A stretch of DNA of 64,000 nt from Synechococcus sp. PROS-U-1 (GTDB taxonomy: Bacteria > Cyanobacteriota > Cyanobacteriia > PCC-6307 > Cyanobiaceae). The stretch lies in NCBI RefSeq assembly GCF_014279755.1, contig NZ_CP047951.1:1798001-1862000 (forward strand). Direction: 5' to 3'. Made by a program: the position numbers and the translations under genes. The notes beneath the pieces are model-generated. The model made no database searches. It saw only the letters and a program-made list of their open reading frames with translations, and had not been told where the DNA came from. Below are positions 17,579 through 29,543 of the stretch, in pieces (the first letter of the stretch is position 1; every line of letters begins with the position of its first letter).

Positions 17579-18802
17579 GTGATGTTCATGACACCGCTGA
17601 TCTTCCATGCGATCGACTTCTCGGCCCGAGAGGTTGGCAGCGGCTTGGCCGTTTCAGCCCTGATCGGCACGGTGGTGCGTCTTCTGAGTGGCGCACTGCT
17701 CGATCGAGGCGTCCGTTGCTCATGGCCCGTCAGGGCCACAACACTGTTGGCGATTGCTGCCGATCTGATCCTGCTGCAAGCGAGCAACTACAGCAGTTAC
17801 CTCATCGGACAACTCCTTCTGGGCTGTGCGGCTGGTCTGTACTGGCCCGCCATCGAATTGGCTGTTCCCTTGAGTTGCGGCAGCATCCCGTCAGGCCGGG
17901 GGTACGCCCTAGTGCGCAGTGCAGATGCTCTCGGGATTGGCATCGGAACGCTGATCGGAACCATGGCCGCAACTCTGGACATCCTGCGAACGGTGTACAC
18001 CGTTGAGGCGGTGTGCATGGGAACAGTGCTGGTCCTCATCTGCCTTTATCCACTCCAGGACGGCCCCCCTTATCGCGAGCTCAGCGGCAACGGTCGAGAC
18101 CATGGAGTTCGACTGCCAACCTCCCGTCTGCCTTGGTTGCTGCCCCTGATGCCCGTGCTGGTCATCAGCGTGGTTGCAACAGGAATCCTGGCTCTTCAGC
18201 AGAGTGTTCTTCCCCTAGATCTAGTGCGCGGGGGGCTGTTGCGACCGGCTCTGAGCGAAAGCCACAGCAGTGCGCTGATCGCCCTGCAATTGACCCTGCT
18301 GGTGAGCCTTCAGTGGCCGGTGGGCCGTTGGCTTGCCGAGCGCAGCGTTGCCTTCGGGCTCGGCCTCAGCCTCGCAGGATTCAGTGTTGGCTGCGGCTTA
18401 ATCGCACTTTCAACCCTGTTCGAAAACGGAACAGCCCTTGTGCTGGCAGCCCTGCTGCCGATGGCGTTCGCCCAGGCCGCATTCCTTCCCACAGCCACAG
18501 AAGCCGTCATCGAAGAGACCCCCCCAGAACATCGGGGCCTAGCGATGGCGCTGTTTTCCCAGTGCTTCGCGGTCAGTGCCATCGTGGCGCCCCTCGCTGG
18601 AGGAACCTTGTTGGACCTTCAGAACAACGGCCTGGTGCTCTGGCTGTTGATGGGAGGGGCCTGCATTGTGGTGCTTCCAACCCTGCGCACCCTGAAACCG
18701 AGATATCGAGCGACAGCAACCAAGGTCGACGCGCCCCGCCCTGGGGAAAAGCAACAGCGCCTTGATGCTTTGGCAGGCAGTCCAGGCAATCTTCGGCGGT
18801 AA
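17579..18802 (+). CDS. Major facilitator superfamily transporter
   Basis: A protein of 407 residues or more, with about twelve hydrophobic segments, a loop-2/3-like motif (SGALLDRGVR) and a second-half LAERSVAF segment, typical of MFS drug or metabolite exporters. The GTG at 17579 would cut into the first membrane span. Upstream codons in the same frame encode a plausible start of that span (RLRFLASIGAGG), but no ATG, GTG or TTG lies there, so the true start is uncertain (a CTG at 17528 is possible). The substrate is unknown. It is divergent from the hydrolase gene. Confidence 0.78.
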   Translation: MMFMTPLIFHAIDFSAREVGSGLAVSALIGTVVRLLSGALLDRGVRCSWPVRATTLLAIAADLILLQASNYSSYLIGQLLLGCAAGLYWPAIELAVPLSCGSIPSGRGYALVRSADALGIGIGTLIGTMAATLDILRTVYTVEAVCMGTVLVLICLYPLQDGPPYRELSGNGRDHGVRLPTSRLPWLLPLMPVLVISVVATGILALQQSVLPLDLVRGGLLRPALSESHSSALIALQLTLLVSLQWPVGRWLAERSVAFGLGLSLAGFSVGCGLIALSTLFENGTALVLAALLPMAFAQAAFLPTATEAVIEETPPEHRGLAMALFSQCFAVSAIVAPLAGGTLLDLQNNGLVLWLLMGGACIVVLPTLRTLKPRYRATATKVDAPRPGEKQQRLDALAGSPGNLRR

Positions 18803-18839
18803 CGGACACAGCCTCTGATCGTTCAGCCGCAAGGTGAGA

Positions 18840-20039
18840 ATGAACCCACAGCAGAAGTCAAAGGCCACCCATCGGGCATCCGAAGGATTGAGACCAGCCA
18901 TGACGGAGACAACATCAGACCGGGCAGGTCAGCCCTTGCAGGGCCAACGGCCTCAGCTCATCGTGCACGCAGGAACGCACAAAACAGCCTCGACCTACAT
19001 CCAGGAACGGCTGCACCGCAATCGTGATCTGCTAGAGCGCCAAGGCGTGAGTCTGCAAGATCCAGAGGACTGCAAGCCCAAGCCAAAAAAACTCGCCGCT
19101 GAGCTGTGCAAACGGAGAACGAAACGCTGGAAGGCCTTCTTCAAGCATCAAGTAAAAGGACCACATCGCCTCCTCAGTGCAGAGCAATTCGCAGTACCAC
19201 TTACTGATCCCGACTGCATCAAGCAACTTGAAGGGATGGCGAATGAAGCTGGTTATGAGCTTCATATTGTGATTTTCATCCGCAGCCAGCTCGACTACAT
19301 CAACTCGCGATACATCTATTCACTACGGCGGTTCTATCACCACCAAACCTTTGAGCAGTTTGTTGACGATGCCTTGAAAGGAAAGCTCCAGAATGAGAGA
19401 AGCATGCGAGGCAAAATCGAACGCCGCCAGGATGTATTTGATTTCTGGACTTATTTCCAGCCGTTACTGAATGCCAGGGACAAGGGCTTGAAGGTGAGTT
19501 TTCTACCGTTCCGCCAAGGCGGATTGGATCCTTTTGAGCAATTCATCCTTGCCATCAACCTTTCGACAAAACTACCCTGGAAATCATGCCCCCAACGTCA
19601 TTTCAACCGCAGCCCGGGAACCCGAGGGGTGTGGCTAGCCCGGGTACTCAGCCAACGCCTCAAGGAGAGCAATATTTCTCCAAAAACAATTGAGAATTCT
19701 TCTCAGATCATTCTCAAAGAGGAGAGAAGGCAGTTCTGGCGAGATCCATCCTTCTGGGGATATTCACGGAAACTGACCAAAAAAGTGACCAGAAACTTCG
19801 AAAAAAACAATGCGAAATTTGCACAAGTTGCGTGGAACTGCAGCTGGGACAAAGCTTTCTCCACAGCCAACAGAGCTGAGCATCGCAAGCGATCCGTTTA
19901 CACGCCTGGATCGATAGAAAATGAAATTCGAATGCATGCGCTTGCGCAACATTTACTTCATCGCATCAAGCAAAAGAAATCTTCTGGAACCACATCACTG
20001 CTAAATCGATTAATCGCTCTTATTCGCCGAAATACTTGA
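18840..20039 (+). CDS. Sulfotransferase-fold protein
   Basis: A protein of about 399 residues. The N-terminal P-loop HAGTHKTASTYIQERL resembles the 5'-phosphosulfate site of PAPS-dependent sulfotransferases, and IVIFIRSQLDYINSRYIYSL resembles the 3'-phosphate region with its Arg/Ser. The C-terminal third is Lys/Arg-rich and more AT-rich than its neighbours. I set the start at ATG 18840, preceded by AAGG at 18831-18834; ATG 18900 is a good alternative that still keeps the P-loop. Targets would probably be surface glycans or lipids. Base composition suggests acquired DNA. Confidence 0.65.
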   Translation: MNPQQKSKATHRASEGLRPAMTETTSDRAGQPLQGQRPQLIVHAGTHKTASTYIQERLHRNRDLLERQGVSLQDPEDCKPKPKKLAAELCKRRTKRWKAFFKHQVKGPHRLLSAEQFAVPLTDPDCIKQLEGMANEAGYELHIVIFIRSQLDYINSRYIYSLRRFYHHQTFEQFVDDALKGKLQNERSMRGKIERRQDVFDFWTYFQPLLNARDKGLKVSFLPFRQGGLDPFEQFILAINLSTKLPWKSCPQRHFNRSPGTRGVWLARVLSQRLKESNISPKTIENSSQIILKEERRQFWRDPSFWGYSRKLTKKVTRNFEKNNAKFAQVAWNCSWDKAFSTANRAEHRKRSVYTPGSIENEIRMHALAQHLLHRIKQKKSSGTTSLLNRLIALIRRNT

Positions 20040-20126
20040 ACAAAAATAGCATTACTTTGTTGTCAATAAAATCACAAGTCGGGCGCAACACTTCTCCATT
20101 GAGCAATTCCATCGGCACAATTCTAT

Positions 20127-20193
20127 AAACTTGAAACTTGAAACTTGAAACTTGAAACTTGAAACTTGAAACTTGAAACTTGAAACTTGAAAC
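20127..20193. repeat. Heptanucleotide tandem repeat, (TTGAAAC) x9
   Basis: Nine perfect head-to-tail copies of TTGAAAC run from 20131 to 20193, preceded by a partial AAAC (20127-20130) and ended by TTTAGG. It lies in an AT-rich spacer between the sulfotransferase-like gene and the 247-residue orphan. It resembles the short tandemly repeated heptamers (STRR) known from filamentous cyanobacteria, but with a different unit. Perfect copies suggest recent expansion by slippage. Confidence 0.97.
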
Positions 20194-20304
20194 TTTAGGC
20201 CAAGACAACCAGCGAAGGCAATCCTCCTAAAACTTTAGAGCATTCTTTAAATCAGATACCATCTAATCATTAGAGCTAGAATTAAAAACTACATCACAGA
20301 ATCA

Positions 20305-21048
20305 ATGGCATCCAATCTCCAGAAACTAAACAAGTTATTCTCGAAAACCAAAAGGGTTTTTGGAATCCGAATACTCGGAACGAGCAATGTCGAACAGGAA
20401 AGATTTAACCATGCCGCAAACGTCTTGCATCAGTATCTCGACAACAACCAAGACGGCAAGCCAGATACCAAGAAATTAGTTCGCAAGCTCAAGCGGAACA
20501 AGGCCGCGATGACATTGTTTGAAAACGAAGCTGAACTCGAGAACTTTCTCGAACATCATGAACACAAGCTTGACAATGCAAAGCTCAACTTCCAAGACCT
20601 ATACAACGATGAAATTATCCTTGCATCAGACAATTCAAATCGATTTGACGCAACGCTCGAAGAAGTTTTCCATTTAATTTGTGACTACGGCTATTCACAA
20701 AGCAACTCAAAGACTTTTGGCTACAACAAAGACTCAATCATTGGCCAACTAATGACGGAGGCCCGAGGTGGGCACTTCAACAAAACCCCAAAAAAATACC
20801 CAAAAAAAGCTTACTACTCTTATAAAGACAAGCATTGTGATTACGACTGCCAGATTGCTGAATACCTCTACTGGGGCGTGACATCCATGCTTGGAGCTCA
20901 AGACGGCCCTGGACGCTACGACGACATCAAAGACGAATGGAGGCTGAACACGCCCGCAAAAATCAAATCAAATGCACCAGAGCTTTATGACCTCCTTAGC
21001 GACCCCAGTACTGGTCTACCAACAGTCCTGCCCGACGGCATTCTTTGA
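20305..21048 (+). CDS. Unrecognised 247-residue protein with an EF-hand-like loop
   Basis: I do not recognise this protein. It has no signal peptide or membrane span. Residues 46-54 (DNNQDGKPD) look like a calcium-binding loop. Residues 114-130 (FDATLEEVFHLICDYGY) and 178-199 (CDYDCQIAEYLYWGVTSMLG) are the most motif-like parts; the Glu119/Glu120/His123 cluster and the Cys178/Cys182 pair could bind metal, but this is a guess. Lys, Asn and Asp are abundant and the DNA is AT-rich relative to the flanks. Its ATG at 20305 is downstream of the heptamer array. Confidence 0.7.
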   Translation: MASNLQKLNKLFSKTKRVFGIRILGTSNVEQERFNHAANVLHQYLDNNQDGKPDTKKLVRKLKRNKAAMTLFENEAELENFLEHHEHKLDNAKLNFQDLYNDEIILASDNSNRFDATLEEVFHLICDYGYSQSNSKTFGYNKDSIIGQLMTEARGGHFNKTPKKYPKKAYYSYKDKHCDYDCQIAEYLYWGVTSMLGAQDGPGRYDDIKDEWRLNTPAKIKSNAPELYDLLSDPSTGLPTVLPDGIL

Positions 21049-22253: not shown

Positions 22254-22304
22254 CGGCGGAATCTACCGGCCAACGGCGAGACTGTTGTGAAGTTTTGTGG
22301 GCCC

Positions 22305-23474
22305 ATGCTGCAGTCCTTGCGCTCCCCCGCGTCCCAATCCCCCGAGGCCGAACTGGCATCCGTAGCTAAAGCGCGATCCAAGCGCCCCAAAGCCGTGATG
22401 GTTGGGCTGTTGTTGCTGGCCCTCTGCGGTGGAGGAGTCCTGCTGCAGCGGTTCGGTCCCTGGAGCAACCGTCAGCGGGACTTGACGCCGTTCACCACCA
22501 CTGCTGAGCAGGGGGTTCTCTCCGGGGTGATCACCGCCAGTGGTGCACTGCAGGCCAAGCAGAAGGTGAACGTGAGTCCGCGCAAGCAGGGGCTACTTGA
22601 TGAACTGCTGGTGGATGAAGGCGATGTTGTGGAAGAAGGCCAGGTGCTGGCGGTGATGGATCAAGCGGATCTCGAGGATCGGTTGCAAGAGAGGCAAGCT
22701 CTGCTGCGCCAGGCGGAGGCCAACTTCCAGACCAAAAAAGAGGATTTCGACCGTCGCAGCAAGCTTTATGCGAGCGGTGTGATCAGCGCAGACGACTTCA
22801 GCGACGTGCGCTTCGAGATGTTGGCCCGACAGGCGGGCCTGATCGCAGCTCGAGAACGTCTAGAGCAATTGGAGCAGGAGAGCCGTGAGCAGACGATCCG
22901 TGCTCCCTTCGCCGGCATGATCACCGCGCGCTACGCCGAACCTGGATCGTTTGTGACCCCCACCACCGCCGCCTCGGCAACGGCCGGTGCCACAAGCTCG
23001 TCGATTGTTGAGCTGTCGCAGGGATTGGAAGTCAGCGCCCGCGTTCCGGAAAGCGACATCGGACGCATCGTGACCGGTCAGAACGCCGAGATCCGCGTTG
23101 ATGCCTTCCCCGATGAACGCTTCTCCGCACGGGTGAGTGAAATTGCCCCCCGTGCTGAAAAAGAAGACAACGTCACCTCCTTCGAGGTGAAACTGAACTT
23201 CGTCGATCCCCCGAAGGAACTGCTGATCGGCATGACCGCCGACATCAACTTCCAGACAGGGCGGAGTGCACCAAAGATCCTGGTGCCCACCGTGGCGATT
23301 TACACAGAAGACGGCAAACCGGGTGTGTTGCTGGTGGATGAGAACCAGAAACCACGTTTCCAGCCAGTGGAACTGGGCAACAGCAGCGGCGACCAGACTG
23401 CGATCCTGAACGGTCTGGAGTCAGGAACACGCGTGTTCATCGATCTGCCTCCCTGGGCTGATCGCCGCGATTGA
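22305..23474 (+). CDS. HlyD/RND-type efflux periplasmic adaptor
   Basis: A 389-residue membrane-fusion protein. One N-terminal anchor (about 30-48), then a lipoyl-like half-motif (VNVSPRKQGLLDELLVDEGDVVEEGQVLAVMD), a coiled-coil hairpin (about 128-200, Glu/Gln/Arg-rich), the returning lipoyl half (TIRAPFAGMITARYAEPG) and beta-barrel domains. It would link an inner-membrane ABC or RND pump to an outer-membrane channel. No pump gene is adjacent. ATG 22305 is preferred over an upstream GTG at 22287 inside the divergent spacer. Confidence 0.88.
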   Translation: MLQSLRSPASQSPEAELASVAKARSKRPKAVMVGLLLLALCGGGVLLQRFGPWSNRQRDLTPFTTTAEQGVLSGVITASGALQAKQKVNVSPRKQGLLDELLVDEGDVVEEGQVLAVMDQADLEDRLQERQALLRQAEANFQTKKEDFDRRSKLYASGVISADDFSDVRFEMLARQAGLIAARERLEQLEQESREQTIRAPFAGMITARYAEPGSFVTPTTAASATAGATSSSIVELSQGLEVSARVPESDIGRIVTGQNAEIRVDAFPDERFSARVSEIAPRAEKEDNVTSFEVKLNFVDPPKELLIGMTADINFQTGRSAPKILVPTVAIYTEDGKPGVLLVDENQKPRFQPVELGNSSGDQTAILNGLESGTRVFIDLPPWADRRD

Positions 23475-23498: not shown

Positions 23499-26456
23499 AT
23501 GCCCGAGGCCACCGTCAAGCCCCTCCTGCTGCTTGTGGATGGCCATTCCCTGGCTTTCCGCAGCTTCTACGCCTTCAGCAAGGGGGGAGAAGGGGGCCTC
23601 GCGACCAAAGACGGCAGGCCGACCAGCGTGACCTATGGCTTTCTCAAAGCCCTACTGGACAACAGCAAATCTCTGAAGCCTGAAGGCGTCGCAATCGCCT
23701 TCGATACAGCCGAGCCCACTTTTCGCCACAAGGCAGACGCCAACTACAAGGCTCATCGGGATGTCGCCCCTGAAGTGTTCTTTCAGGACCTTGAACAGTT
23801 GCAGCAGATCCTGGAAACGCACCTGCAGCTCCCCCTCTGCATCGCACCGGGCTTCGAAGCTGACGATGTTCTAGGCACGCTGGCAAACCGAGCAGCCGAT
23901 ACAGGCTGGGGCGTTCGGATTCTGTCTGGAGACCGCGACCTGTTTCAGCTGGTGGATGACAGCCGCGACATCTCGGTTCTTTACATGGGCGGAGGCCCCT
24001 ACGCCAAAAGCAGTGGCCCAATACTGATTCGTGAAGAGGGGGTACTCGGCAAGCTCGGCGTGATGCCTGACAAGGTGGTGGACTTGAAAGCCCTCACCGG
24101 GGACAGCTCCGACAACATCCCCGGAGTGCGAGGTGTGGGCCCGAAAACGGCGATCAACCTGCTCAAGGAGAACAGCGATCTCGACGCGGTTTACACCACC
24201 CTCGAGCAGGTGGAAGCGGAAGGGCCGAAAGCCAGTCGGGGAGCCATCAAGGGAGCACTCAAGGGGAAACTGCGCTCAGACCGTGACAACGCCTATCTCT
24301 CGCGCAAGCTGGCCGAGATTCTTGTGGATGTTCCCCTCCCCAAGGAACCAAGCCTGCCGTTGTCTTCGGTGGATGGCGACGGCCTGAAGAGTTGCCTGGA
24401 AGACCTCGAGCTCAACAGCCTGCTGCGCCAGGTGGAGAGCTTTGTGGCGGCCTTTTCAGAAGGGGGTTACGGGGCCAACGCGGCGGCCGCTGCTGCTAAG
24501 GCCACCAGCCCAGCCACCTCAGAACAACCGACTGCCGGTGCCGCCGCCGAACAGGCGACAGACGAGGAGGTGGGGCTGCCCGCCCTGAAACCCCAGCTGA
24601 TCCAAACCGAAGCAGCCCTGGATGCTCTGGTGAAGAGGCTGATGGCCTGCACCGACAGCACCCAGCCTGTCGCCTTTGACACGGAGACCACCGACCTCAA
24701 CCCCTTTCGGGCCGAGCTGGTGGGCATCGGCATTTGCTGGGACGAGGCCCTGGACGCTCTGGCCTACATCCCGCTGGGGCACAAAGGCACCGAAGACAGC
24801 AGCCCTGAGCAGCTGGCGTTGGAAACAGTGCTCACTGCCCTCGCTCCTTGGCTGGCCAGCAACACCCACCCCAAAACCCTCCAAAACGCCAAATACGACC
24901 GCCTGATCCTGCTGCGGCACGGCGTTGCCCTGGAGGGCGTTGTGATCGACACGCTGCTGGCGGATTACTTACGAGATGCAGCAGCCAAACATGGCCTGGA
25001 GCTGATGGCGGAGCGGGAATTTGGCTTCCAGCCCACCTCCTTCACCGATCTGGTGGGCAAAAAACAAACCTTTGCCGATGTCCCGCTGGAGCCCGCCAGC
25101 CTGTACTGCGGAATGGACGTTCACGTCACCCGCCGCCTGGCACTGCTGCTGCACAGTCAGCTGGAGGCGATGGGTCCTCAGCTGCTGCCTCTGCTCGAAC
25201 AGGTGGAGCAACCCCTTGAACCGGTGCTGGCCCTCATGGAGTCCACCGGGATTCGGATCGATGTGCCCTACCTCCAGGGCCTCTCAGAGGAAATGGGAAC
25301 CACCCTGCAGCGGTTGGAAGCCGAAGCCAAAGAAGCCGCCGGTGTTGAGTTCAATCTGGCCTCACCCAAGCAGCTAGGGGAATTGCTGTTCGACACCCTG
25401 GGGCTGGATCGCAAAAAATCCCGCCGAACCAAGACCGGCTTCAGCACCGATGCCACCGTGCTGGAGAAACTCGGCAATGACCACCCCGTGGTGCCGCTGG
25501 TGCTGGAGCACCGGGTGCTCAGCAAGCTGAAAAGCACCTACATCGATGCCCTGCCCCAATTGGTGGAGCCGGAAACAGGGCGTGTCCACACCGATTTCAA
25601 CCAGGCGGTGACGGCGACGGGCCGGCTAAGCAGCAGCAACCCCAACCTGCAGAACATCCCAGTCCGCACTGAGTACAGCCGGCGCATCCGCAAGGCCTTC
25701 CTGCCGCAGGAAGGCTGGACCTTGCTCAGTGCTGACTACTCCCAAATCGAACTGCGCATTCTCACGCACCTCTCGGGCGAAGAGGTGCTTCAAGAGGCCT
25801 ACCGCAGCGGTGATGACGTCCACGCGCTGACCGCTCGGCTTTTGCTGGACAAAGACGATGTCAGTTCGGACGAACGCCGCCTCGGCAAGACCATCAACTT
25901 CGGGGTGATCTACGGCATGGGAGCCCAGCGATTCGCGCGGGAAACCGGCGTAAGCCAGAGCGAAGCCAAGGATTTCCTGGCGAAATACAAACAGCGCTAC
26001 CCGAAGGTGTTCGCGTTCCTGGAGCTGCAGGAACGCCTCGCCCTGAGCCGCGGCTACGTGGAAACGATCCTTGGCCGACGGCGTCCGTTCCATTTTGACC
26101 GCAACGGTTTGGGCCGGCTGCTGGGCAAGGATCCCTTGGAGATCGATCTGGATGTGGCCCGCCGCGGAGGCATGGAGGCTCAACAACTCCGAGCCGCTGC
26201 CAATGCTCCGATTCAGGGGTCGAGTGCCGACATCATCAAAGTGGCGATGGTGCAGCTGCAAGCAGCCCTACAGAGCCAGGGGCTGCCTGCCCAACTGCTA
26301 CTGCAAGTGCACGACGAACTGGTGCTCGAAGTCGCACCGGATGCCTTGAAGGCCATCCGAGATCTGGTGGTGAAGACCATGGAACAGGCCGTCGAGCTGA
26401 CTGTGCCTTTGGTGGTGGAGACCGGCGTCGGCGCGAACTGGATGGAAGCGAAATAA
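23499..26456 (+). CDS. polA: DNA polymerase I
   Basis: A 985-residue family A polymerase. The N-terminal 5'-3' exonuclease domain (about 1-300) includes FEADDVLGTLA and LTGDSSDNIPGVRGVGPKTA. An Ala-rich linker lies near 325-350. The 3'-5' exonuclease domain keeps its DxE motif (AFDTETTDLN), so proofreading may be active. The polymerase domain contains DYSQIELRIL, KTINFGVIYGMG and LLQVHDELVLEV. It acts in Okazaki fragment maturation and repair. Confidence 0.97.
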   Translation: MPEATVKPLLLLVDGHSLAFRSFYAFSKGGEGGLATKDGRPTSVTYGFLKALLDNSKSLKPEGVAIAFDTAEPTFRHKADANYKAHRDVAPEVFFQDLEQLQQILETHLQLPLCIAPGFEADDVLGTLANRAADTGWGVRILSGDRDLFQLVDDSRDISVLYMGGGPYAKSSGPILIREEGVLGKLGVMPDKVVDLKALTGDSSDNIPGVRGVGPKTAINLLKENSDLDAVYTTLEQVEAEGPKASRGAIKGALKGKLRSDRDNAYLSRKLAEILVDVPLPKEPSLPLSSVDGDGLKSCLEDLELNSLLRQVESFVAAFSEGGYGANAAAAAAKATSPATSEQPTAGAAAEQATDEEVGLPALKPQLIQTEAALDALVKRLMACTDSTQPVAFDTETTDLNPFRAELVGIGICWDEALDALAYIPLGHKGTEDSSPEQLALETVLTALAPWLASNTHPKTLQNAKYDRLILLRHGVALEGVVIDTLLADYLRDAAAKHGLELMAEREFGFQPTSFTDLVGKKQTFADVPLEPASLYCGMDVHVTRRLALLLHSQLEAMGPQLLPLLEQVEQPLEPVLALMESTGIRIDVPYLQGLSEEMGTTLQRLEAEAKEAAGVEFNLASPKQLGELLFDTLGLDRKKSRRTKTGFSTDATVLEKLGNDHPVVPLVLEHRVLSKLKSTYIDALPQLVEPETGRVHTDFNQAVTATGRLSSSNPNLQNIPVRTEYSRRIRKAFLPQEGWTLLSADYSQIELRILTHLSGEEVLQEAYRSGDDVHALTARLLLDKDDVSSDERRLGKTINFGVIYGMGAQRFARETGVSQSEAKDFLAKYKQRYPKVFAFLELQERLALSRGYVETILGRRRPFHFDRNGLGRLLGKDPLEIDLDVARRGGMEAQQLRAAANAPIQGSSADIIKVAMVQLQAALQSQGLPAQLLLQVHDELVLEVAPDALKAIRDLVVKTMEQAVELTVPLVVETGVGANWMEAK

Positions 26457-26459
26457 AGA

Positions 26460-27938
26460 TCAGCCGAACAGATCAAGCTGCTGTTGACTCAACAAATCCT
26501 CAAATTCGTCGAACACCTTGGAGCCAATTACATCAAAGATCTCAGGATCTAAGTTTTGTACTTGATCTTTACTCAGCGAAGAAGCAAATCGAATCTTCAT
26601 TTTTTTAGCCTGAGCCTGAGTCAAGCCCTCGAAAGCCCCGGCAGGAATATGTTCGATATGGCTCTCTTTTAGCTTGGACAAAGTCTTGGAGTTCCAACCT
26701 GACATTTGCGTCTTATCGAGCCTTGCAAAATCATCTCCAGAGAGCTTTTTAACTGACTTAGGCTTAAAACCGGCAATAGCATCGGCAGGCAAAAGATCAA
26801 ACTCTTCAGGCTCAATAGAAGCCACCAGAAGACCCGCCATTTTTTTGATTTGCTTTGCCTGAAAACCTTCAAAAGATTCAGTCGGAAGAGCATCAAACTG
26901 TCCCAACTTCATCGACCTGAAGATCTTTGGCATCAACTCAGACAGCTGATCAGCTTCCACCTTTTCAAGAGTATCTGGAGCAAGCTTCTTGAATTGCTTT
27001 GGATCAAAACCACCTACTGCATCAGGCGTCAAGGCAGCAAACCTATCGGTGTCAAATGATCCCATTAATTTAGGGCTCATTTTATCGATCTGTTTTGCAT
27101 CAAATCCGTCAAATGCCTGGACAGGAAGGGATTCGAACTGTGCCGATCGAATCCCTTCAAACATCTTGGGACGAAGGTTGCCAATCTGTTCAGATTCGAA
27201 ACCATCGAAGGCCTCAACTGGTAGTTCTGCCAACTGATCCGCGTGCATTGTCTTGAAAACATCTGACGGAAGAACACTCACCTGTTCAGAGTCAAACCCT
27301 TGGAACGCATCAGCTGGAAGCTCGCCGAACTGTCCTGGCTGAAGTCCTTCCAAAAGCTCTGGCCGCATGTTCTCAATCTGTTCCGCATCAAACCCTTCAA
27401 AAGATTCGGATGACATTGCAGCCAACTGATCCGGCTGCATCTCCTCAAAAACCTCTGGAGGAAGAACCATCACATGTTCAGAATCAAATCCTTGAAACGA
27501 ATCCACGGGAAGCTCGCCAAACTGACCTGGACGAATACCCTCGACCAACTCCGGACGCATTGATTCAATCTGTTCTGCATCAAATCCCTCAAAGGAAGCA
27601 TCTGGGATTAGAGCAAATTGCTCCGGGCTGAACTCTCCAACGACATCTGGATCCAGGGCACCAATCTGTTCTGGAAGGAGATTCTCTACCATCGAAGGAG
27701 GAAGATCAATTAGATCATCCCTCTGAAGATCTTCTGGAGATATGCCTCCAATGGGAGGCGGTGGTGGAAGAGGAAGCGCCTCCATATCAGGCACCAGATC
27801 TTCAGGGGGAGTATTGCCTTCTGTGACGTCGTCTTCTGGCGGAAGAATCACATCACCCGGCAAATCCGGCATCTCCGGCCTTCCATCAGAAAAATTATTA
27901 GCGAACCAGGCAACAATCTGATCGTTTTGACGTTCCAT
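26460..27938 (-). CDS. Repeat protein built of about 24 units of 16 residues (64-residue super-repeat)
   Basis: Family not recognised. The 492-residue protein has an acidic N-terminus with a Pro-rich linker (about 40-70, PLPPPPPIGG) and then, from residue 86 to 469, about 24 gapless 16-residue units of the form G-F-x-x-x-Q-[IF]-x-x-[LM]-x-P-x-x-[FL]-E. In the first half the units recur in sets of four, giving a 64-residue period. The last 23 residues end QQQLDLFG. There is no signal peptide or membrane span. Proline and hydrophobic spacing suggest stacked short helices. The start is ATG 27938; an in-frame ATG at 27980 would add 14 hydrophobic residues. The DNA is AT-richer than its flanks polA and cysS. 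Confidence 0.85.
   Translation of the reverse strand: MERQNDQIVAWFANNFSDGRPEMPDLPGDVILPPEDDVTEGNTPPEDLVPDMEALPLPPPPPIGGISPEDLQRDDLIDLPPSMVENLLPEQIGALDPDVVGEFSPEQFALIPDASFEGFDAEQIESMRPELVEGIRPGQFGELPVDSFQGFDSEHVMVLPPEVFEEMQPDQLAAMSSESFEGFDAEQIENMRPELLEGLQPGQFGELPADAFQGFDSEQVSVLPSDVFKTMHADQLAELPVEAFDGFESEQIGNLRPKMFEGIRSAQFESLPVQAFDGFDAKQIDKMSPKLMGSFDTDRFAALTPDAVGGFDPKQFKKLAPDTLEKVEADQLSELMPKIFRSMKLGQFDALPTESFEGFQAKQIKKMAGLLVASIEPEEFDLLPADAIAGFKPKSVKKLSGDDFARLDKTQMSGWNSKTLSKLKESHIEHIPAGAFEGLTQAQAKKMKIRFASSLSKDQVQNLDPEIFDVIGSKVFDEFEDLLSQQQLDLFG
26532..27683 (-). repeat. Coding tandem repeat, 48-bp unit with 192-bp higher order
   Basis: This is the DNA of the 16-residue units inside the repeat protein. 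Units diverge in sequence but keep length exactly, and units four apart (for example those starting GFDAEQIE and GFDSEQVS with their neighbours) are most alike, pointing to duplication of 4-unit blocks. Confidence 0.85.
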
Positions 27939-28061
27939 GAACAACGATAGAAAGAGTCGATAAATGAAGACTACGTCCAATTCCAGAATTGCGACGTCCT
28001 AGACAACAGATCGAGTGACAACCGAACAGGCCGTAGCCTCAGCCGCAGCTTCTGAACGGCT

Positions 28062-29543
28062 GTGTCCCTGCGGCTCACCAACACCCTCACCCGCCGCACC
28101 GAACCCTTCACACCGCTGACTCCGGGCAAAGCGAGCATCTACTGCTGCGGCGTGACGGTCTATGACCTCTGCCACCTCGGCCATGCCCGCAGCTACATCA
28201 ACTGGGATGTGCTTCGGCGGTATCTGATCTGGCGTGGCCTCGAAGTGACCTTCGTTCAGAACTTCACCGACATCGACGACAAGATCCTCAAACGTGCCGA
28301 TGAGGAGAACTCCACGATGACCGCCGTCAGCGAGCGGAACATCGAATCCTTCCATCAGGATATGGATTCGCTTGGAATCCTGCGGCCCGACCGCATGCCC
28401 CGCGCCACTCAGTGCCTGGATGGGATCCGCAATCTCATCAGCGAACTGGAAGCTAAGGGTGCGGCGTACAGCGCTGAAGGGGATGTGTATTTCGCAGTGA
28501 TGAAGCATGCCGGTTACGGCAAGCTCAGCGGCCGCGATTTGGGCGAACAGCAGGACAACGCAGCTGGTCGCGTGGCCGATGCCGAAGAGGCCCGTAAGAA
28601 ACACCCCTTCGATTTCGCGCTGTGGAAAGGGGCCAAACCCGGAGAACCCAGCTTTCCCTCCCCCTGGGGTGAGGGACGCCCTGGCTGGCACATCGAATGC
28701 TCAGCCATGGTGCGGGCGGAGCTCGGAGACACAATCGACATCCACCTTGGTGGTGCCGACCTGGTGTTCCCGCACCACGAGAACGAGATTGCCCAATCCG
28801 AAGCGGCTACAGGCCAAGACCTGGCCCGGATCTGGATGCACAACGGCATGGTCAATGTCGGCGGGCAGAAGATGAGCAAATCGCTCGGCAACTTCACCAC
28901 CATCCGCGCCCTGCTGGACAGCGGAATCTCGCCGATGACCCTGCGCCTGTTTGTGCTGCAGGCCCACTACCGCAAACCCCTCGATTTCACTGCTCAAGCC
29001 CTAGACGCCGCGGCCACCGGCTGGAAGGGGCTGAATGCAGCACTCAGTCTTGGCGATCGTTATGGAGCAAGCCTTGGCTGGAGTACGGCCGCGCCCCTGA
29101 CGGAGGGTGCAATGACTTCGGATGGAGGTCCAGTCGACACCGCCCTGGTGGAGCTCGAGCAACGCTTTATCAGCGCCATGGACGATGACCTCAACAGCTC
29201 GGGGGGACTGGCTGTTCTGTTCGATCTGGCCAAGCCCCTCCGAGCCCTTGCCAACCGGCTGGAACGAGGCGAGGACACCGCACTGCCTGAGCAGGAGTTG
29301 AACGCCCTCGAGGGTCGCTGGCAGCTCCTACGCCAACTGGCGGCGGTGTTGGGACTGCGCTCGGAAGCAGAGGCGGCCTCCAGCCTCGATGACGGGGCGA
29401 TTGATGCGGCCATCGCAGACAGGAAGGCTGCCAAAGCTGCGAAGAACTACCCAGAAGCCGACCGGATCCGTGATGAGCTCGCGGCCCAAGGTGTGGAGCT
29501 GATCGATAAACCCGGCGGAGTGACGGAGTGGATCCGCTCCTGA
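28062..29543 (+). CDS. cysS: Cysteinyl-tRNA synthetase
   Basis: A 493-residue class I synthetase starting at GTG. The HIGH-type box is HLGH in [13 protein letters not shown], the zinc-site Cys is in the YCCGVTVYD motif, and the KMSKS box is present ([11 protein letters not shown]). WHIECSAM and [13 protein letters not shown] complete the family pattern. The C-terminal anticodon domain begins after about residue 340. The length is normal. Confidence 0.97.

Follow-up and report, generated by a model that had tools for sequence, protein, structure and literature searches.

A divergent stand-alone octad-repeat protein in a variable genome slot of Synechococcus sp. PROS-U-1

A gene of Synechococcus sp. 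PROS-U-1 encodes a divergent, stand-alone cyanobacterial octad solenoid, located in a variable slot of the genome, and its repeat is of a kind already catalogued. The gene lies on the minus strand at 26460..27938 of the window, by which is meant the whole 64,000-nucleotide stretch that was analysed (contig NZ_CP047951.1, positions 1,798,001 to 1,862,000). The best explanation overall, which we give about an even chance, is that the protein is a stand-alone member of the 'ALTTAQ type', that it is an exported surface rod, and that its gene is an accessory cassette.

The gene and its octad array

The open reading frame encodes 492 residues from an ATG, plus the stop codon, as had been described; an alternative TTG start at 27980 gives 506 residues. 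It is located between polA (23499..26456, plus strand), which is convergent with it, and cysS (28062..29543, plus strand), and is the only match of its kind in the genome (2,576,003 bases). A scan for promoters and terminators found no more than in shuffled sequences. The protein consists of an N-terminal arm rich in proline and acidic residues (residues 1–70, 27729..27938), 51 gapless octads (residues 71–478, 26505..27728), and a short C-terminal end (residues 479–492, 26463..26504), all on the minus strand. The Pro-rich arm and the QQQLDLFG end noted earlier are both present in the translation. The corresponding arms of the relatives are Gly/Pro-rich or IPDTS-rich.

The basic repeat unit is 8 residues, not 16. 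Residues 71–478 can be written in eights with no gap, and the first position is then hydrophobic in 51 of 51 octads (Leu, Phe, Met, Ile, Val or Trp), as is the sixth (Phe, Val, Ile, Leu, Met or Ala). The hydrophobic fractions at these two positions sum to 2.0, against a maximum of 1.12 among 2000 residue shuffles, for each of which the best frame was chosen. The preliminary description had reported exact 16-residue units. The strict, gapless periodicity stands, but each 16-residue unit consists of two octads of alternating type, and the array therefore contains 25.5 pairs.

Among the twelve lags listed, sequence identity within the array is 30.5% at lag 64, 27.7% at 32, 25.9% at 80, 18.4% at 16, 15.1% at 24, and 12% at 8. 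The 64-residue super-period proposed earlier is thus present as a recurrence in this array. It is local, however, as lag 80 is stronger than lag 64 in six of the seven stand-alone proteins of the genus that were scored (G005, G006, G011, G014, G017 and G019); of two such proteins from another genus, one prefers lag 80 (G061) and the other lag 64 (G149). The super-period probably records past duplications of blocks, in steps that are multiples of 16, rather than a fixed structural period. By eye, an 1821-residue frame in another genome (L044, G140) repeats a block of ten octads near-identically several times, which looks like recent expansion of an array.

Predicted structure

The structure predicted by AlphaFold2 from the protein and five relatives (mean pLDDT 84.6, pTM 0.71) is an all-helical array, in which every one of the 51 octads in residues 71–478 has a helix of its own. 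The helices are mostly 4–6 residues long, with one of 3 residues and the last of 10. Ten-residue means of pLDDT are 83–97 across residues 71–480 with these six sequences, and values are below 50 for residues 1–12 and 14–55 of the arm. In a prediction for residues 71–280 made without an alignment, the mean pLDDT is 68.1 and mostly the same short helices appear, together with three fused, longer ones. The accessible part of a study of beta-solenoids cautions that AlphaFold2 may be confident yet unrealistic on such repeat proteins (PMC11795689). The regular array predicted with the alignment, and the mostly identical helices without it, agree with the structural solenoid suggested from the sequence, and an octad solenoid is very probably the correct structural class. 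In the model, the octad helices are predicted to stack into a continuous rod. Positions 1 and 6 would form its core, and the other positions its exposed face.

The top match found by Foldseek is mesothelin (7ued), with an E value of 1.5e-5, TM-scores of 0.18 and 0.25, and an rmsd of 12.7. With VIA-align, mesothelin is also the best match to the aligned model (Z 6.0, rmsd 8.0, 259 residues aligned), whereas mesothelin (Z 5.8) is tied with a designed armadillo fusion (Z 6.0, rmsd 6.0) when the model made without an alignment is used; all these Z values are under 8, below the level where a helical-repeat match exceeds common arrangement. Importin, armadillo and PP2A proteins are among the fold neighbors. 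Against predicted viral proteins, Foldseek places uncultured phage proteins first (E 4.8e-7 and 5.9e-7), with TM-scores of at most 0.14. The PDB chain 9zem, to which the sequence is related (see below), is not among the fold matches listed, which is no evidence of a different fold.

Relatives in the genus and beyond

Ten of the 34 genomes of the genus contain a match, including that of PROS-U-1. Of two scans of genome contigs, the one made with the alignment found five relatives and the other none. The stand-alone type with a conserved C-terminal region is present in eight genomes (G000, G005, G006, G011, G014, G017, G019 and G020), the copies in G011 and G020 being truncated where their contigs end. 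The stand-alone octad protein of G010 (L008) is a different one. The remaining matches that were read, which leave out L026 and L027, are octad arrays within larger frames. In three of them the array is at the C-terminal end of a protein in which Pfam also identifies other domains, namely RTX repeats (L016) or Ig/cadherin-like domains (L010 and L024). In L009, and in L046 from another genus, the octads follow other sequence, with no Pro-rich stretch.

In G006, two octad-bearing frames (L023 and L019; G006:C1:490938 and 495030) have equal match scores and are separated by about 4.1 kb, which points to tandem duplication in the recent past. The octad gene of G005 has an in-frame TAG (L002, 1873–1875) and is a broken or misread copy.

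A tblastn search of 72,556 plasmid records found octad proteins in 57 of them, mostly of Alphaproteobacteria, at 18–25% identity; phage records and viral contigs yielded no relative. Those that were read are polymers of octads, and some are giants that contain little else. Counted with a loose pattern, the gapless octads number 353 in the protein of Rhodovastum and 193 in that of Cereibacter sphaeroides 2.4.1; the Spiroplasma and Polaromonas frames contain shorter octad runs only. The former of these, an ORF with octad runs at 21% identity on the plasmid of a Spiroplasma endosymbiont (L117, 5767–9219), is from a very distant host. The match of the C-terminal region to the giants is among the top three offsets in four of five and the top one in a single case, which is suggestive only, and the 50-residue C-terminal cap matches best at the end of the giant in none of seven.

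Cellular location

Twenty-two of the 57 plasmid loci were opened, chosen by eye across genera with several per genus and with flanks of 6 to 14 kb, and 20 were annotated from a gene table known to be incomplete. An ABC exporter and HlyD are found near the giant in five of the 20 (two Cereibacter, two Pseudomonas, one Pseudoroseomonas). Genes for a glycosyltransferase, an O-GlcNAc transferase or sugar-nucleotide enzymes are found in 11, including all five with secretion genes; neither count has a background rate, and strains of the same genus are not independent. Neither kind of gene is present in the other nine (four Shinella, Roseateles, Thioclava, Spiroplasma, Polaromonas and Rhizobium SL42); the Rhizobium locus has an HlyD-family gene and no exporter. 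Together with the RTX and cadherin partners in the genus, these secretion and sugar neighbors make export the best reading, by association.

Work on marine Synechococcus, as far as the part available goes, describes the exported fraction as the most variable between strains and includes exported chitinases that have no signal peptide (PMC4949707). The octad protein may be a surface rod that is exported without a signal peptide rather than an intracellular scaffold, a localization for which we judge the case evenly balanced. The protein would then leave the cell by a type-I-like route. A flexible Pro/Gly-rich arm would precede the helical rod, and the rod would provide a length-adjustable spacer or binding surface outside the cell. 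Candidate roles are adhesion, spacing, or masking against grazers and phages.

An intracellular scaffold had been proposed in the preliminary description. The helical rod would remain in the cytoplasm and bind partners through its arm and surface, as ARM/HEAT proteins do, and we consider this rather unlikely. It is consistent with the start of the protein, which by eye does not resemble a signal peptide (as had been noted correctly), with the importin, armadillo and PP2A neighbors, and with the Shinella, Roseateles and Thioclava giants, near which the opened loci have no secretion genes. In addition, the HlyD model TIGR01843 has nothing above cut-off in the PROS-U-1 genome. However, the ARM-like Z values of 3–6 may reflect common arrangement only. 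Octads form the ends of RTX and cadherin/Ig proteins within the genus, and giants elsewhere adjoin type I secretion genes, both of which argue for export. The distribution of HlyD does not discriminate, because loose matches to TIGR01843 occur in all 34 genus genomes and the cut-off is reached in only one (G008).

Directly upstream of polA in the window, a plus-strand gene at 22287–23474 encodes an HlyD/membrane-fusion-like protein. Loose HlyD matches are found at comparable places beside polA in several genomes of the genus, whether or not they carry the octad gene.

The polA-cysS slot

cysS was found in 31 of the 34 genus genomes, and 30 of these gave loci. The octad gene adjoins cysS in five of the 30. 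polA adjoins cysS in 20, at a distance of about 280 bases in G018 and of about 50 in the other 19. In the last five, the contig ends or polA is out of reach; in two of them (G011 and G020) the octad gene is on a separate contig, at the polA side of the slot. Scored as a slot, the 30 loci comprise seven with the octad gene, 20 empty and three unscorable (G010, G012 and G016). On the cysS tree this distribution needs five changes, a number as low as which is reached in 219 of 500 label shuffles, so that the carriers show no clustering beyond that of shuffled labels. In G019 the octad gene is located elsewhere (L030). In another genus, it is beside polA in L041 and L040; the other neighbor in L040 is cysS, split into halves of opposite orientation, which may be an assembly error. 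The cysS of G018 is almost identical to that of the carrier G017, and G018 retains part of the leader of the carrier, which suggests recent loss.

The insert in the window is bounded by a direct repeat, CCGAACAG, with its left copy at 26464..26471 and its right copy at 28022..28029. This sequence is present once before cysS in ten of the 20 empty sites, including that of the nearest relative, G030; the other ten have diverged spacers and no CCGAACAG. The last three codons and the stop (26460–26471, minus strand) fall in TCAGCCGAACAG, which is near-identical to the polA-cysS spacer of relatives that have no octad gene. The tail was therefore probably acquired from the target site, and LFG is probably insertion-site-like sequence rather than an evolved binding motif, as judged from the spacer comparison. 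This speaks against the binding ends that had been suggested for the protein. The likeliest history is gain in the lineage of PROS-U-1 with a short duplication, giving the LFG end; the alternative is deletion between the CCGAACAG repeats in the relatives.

The composition of the insert is distinct. Its G+C content is 46.6%, as compared to 59.9% for the window and 61.5% for polA, and its GC3 is 42% against 74%. Each of the seven carrier genes scored is AT-richer than all five of the polA parts with which they were compared. The stretch of lowest G+C in the window is at about 18750–21000 (43% in the 1500 bases from 19751), with an unassigned 247-residue ORF at 20305–21048.

For the G005/G006 pair, dN and dS of the octad gene are 0.13 and 0.69 (polA, 0.025 and 0.51), and dN/dS is about 0.19, the G005 copy having the in-frame TAG. 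For G017/G011, with a partial G011 copy, they are 0.207 and 1.54 (polA, 0.088 and 1.73), and dN/dS is 0.13 with dS saturated. These values indicate that the protein has been under constraint, looser than that on polA, and the octad gene seems to have travelled with polA since each of these pairs split.

The gene could instead be a nearly neutral passenger, an AT-rich cassette that often enters and leaves a single slot, degenerates, and does little for its host. Its G+C content of 47% against 60%, its scattered presence over the cysS tree with the clustering of shuffled labels, and the TAG in the G005 copy are in keeping with this. Such a passenger is nevertheless improbable, given the low dN/dS in both pairs, a synonymous divergence similar to that of the neighboring polA, and an array in which all 51 octads are intact. 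The preferred description would be an accessory cassette of the polA-cysS slot that is ancient in some branches of the genus and has been repeatedly lost or gained.

Membership in known repeat families

The Pfam family PF20080 ('ALTTAQ repeat') matches the protein with a whole-protein score of 35.2 bits, above the gathering cut-off of 26.4, and the PDB chain 9zem ('HeliScrew4', 120 residues) is matched with E values of 5.4e-11 by single sequence and 6e-24 by profile. The earlier statement that the protein matches no known repeat family is thus incorrect. As read from its proteobacterial members, the register of PF20080 is a period of 8 residues in which positions 1 and 6 are hydrophobic, and the protein has this register. 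Gln is present at position 5 and Pro at position 3 in 19 of 51 octads each, and the string LTTAQ is absent.

The profile comparison with Pfam and the PDB, suggested earlier as a check, therefore did find a known repeat family, although the PF20080 match is of low specificity. Passing the PF20080 threshold alone proves little, because CAAP1 and Rpn9_C are also above their Pfam cut-offs on this protein. Among four full-length orthologs, two pass the PF20080 cut-off and two fail. A six-frame search of the PROS-U-1 genome gives no match at E 0.001, the best single stretch scoring 14.4 bits, under the cut-off. Across 386 cyanobacterial genomes, seven match at E 0.001 and six are above the cut-off, PROS-U-1 being absent. 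The matches in L096 and L097 are Ala/Thr low-complexity frames, and that in L101 is a similar frame, antisense to an RNA-binding-like frame; all three are probable false positives of the Pfam model. They make PF20080 a poor tool for a census, and a profile of the orthologs was therefore used for the family-wide count. It matches 22 of 300 genomes, and its weak end includes a leucine-rich repeat (LRR) protein (L052). The three proteobacterial giants scanned with PF20080 score 653–1138 bits. An NCBIfam scan of the protein found nothing above cut-off. Literature searches for 'ALTTAQ' and 'HeliScrew' found no paper on either, and those on octapeptide solenoids and on type I secretion and adhesins found nothing about this repeat.

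That the protein is an effector released against grazers or competitors, not a surface rod, is very unlikely: a link of giant proteins with motility and the evasion of grazing has been described for marine Synechococcus (PMC4949707, in the part available), but no catalytic domain is above the Pfam cut-off. An LRR protein, in which 24 residues would equal three octads, is extremely improbable and was rejected, because the internal identity peaks at multiples of 16 and is low at lag 24 (0.15) and the predicted array is all-helical with no LRR strands, and mesothelin rather than an LRR protein heads the Foldseek list, even though profile matches to LRR chains reach 2.4e-12 (behind 9zem) and a proteobacterial octad giant matches such chains as well.

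Comparison with known systems

With a helix every eight residues and two fixed positions in the core, the repeat period is very short for a helical solenoid, so the design rules are directly legible in the sequence. If exposed on the surface, the protein would offer a testable handle on the variation of picocyanobacterial surfaces as protection from grazers and phages, and also on a repeat family whose function is unknown. It is conceivable, though we regard it as unlikely, that the octad proteins form a single widespread class of helical-screw rods that are exported and perhaps glycosylated, contain 51 to more than 350 octads, and have a length set simply by octad number; marine Synechococcus would then keep its stand-alone type as a surface cassette that is exchanged at the fixed slot between polA and cysS.

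Both Foldseek and, for the aligned model, VIA-align rank mesothelin first among fold matches, and Pfam matches to mesothelin, below cut-off, are found in three of nine related octad proteins. Mesothelin is described as a right-handed solenoid of 24 short helices (PMC10035497). In contrast to the octad array, mesothelin has irregular units of two to three helices and is a GPI-anchored animal protein. Common descent is not claimed, and the accessible portion of a 2009 mesothelin paper (PMC2628672) contains no bacterial or octad terms.

The likeness to 9zem is closer in sequence, the octad register being aligned gap-free across 113 profile positions. One helix per octad is assumed for this chain from its name and sequence, and is predicted for the window protein.

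Like the window protein, several larger Synechococcus proteins (L010, L016, L017, L019 and L024) have a Pro-rich stretch followed by gapless runs of 16–28 octads. Unlike the larger octad proteins of Synechococcus, it is stand-alone and has no RTX or cadherin domain. The proteobacterial PF20080 giants share with it the 8-residue register, the hydrophobic positions 1 and 6, the frequent Gln at position 5, the long gapless arrays, and, by eye, a start that does not resemble a signal peptide. What sets the window protein apart from these giants is its short length, its abundance of Phe at positions 1 and 6, its Pro-rich arm and its two alternating types of octad.
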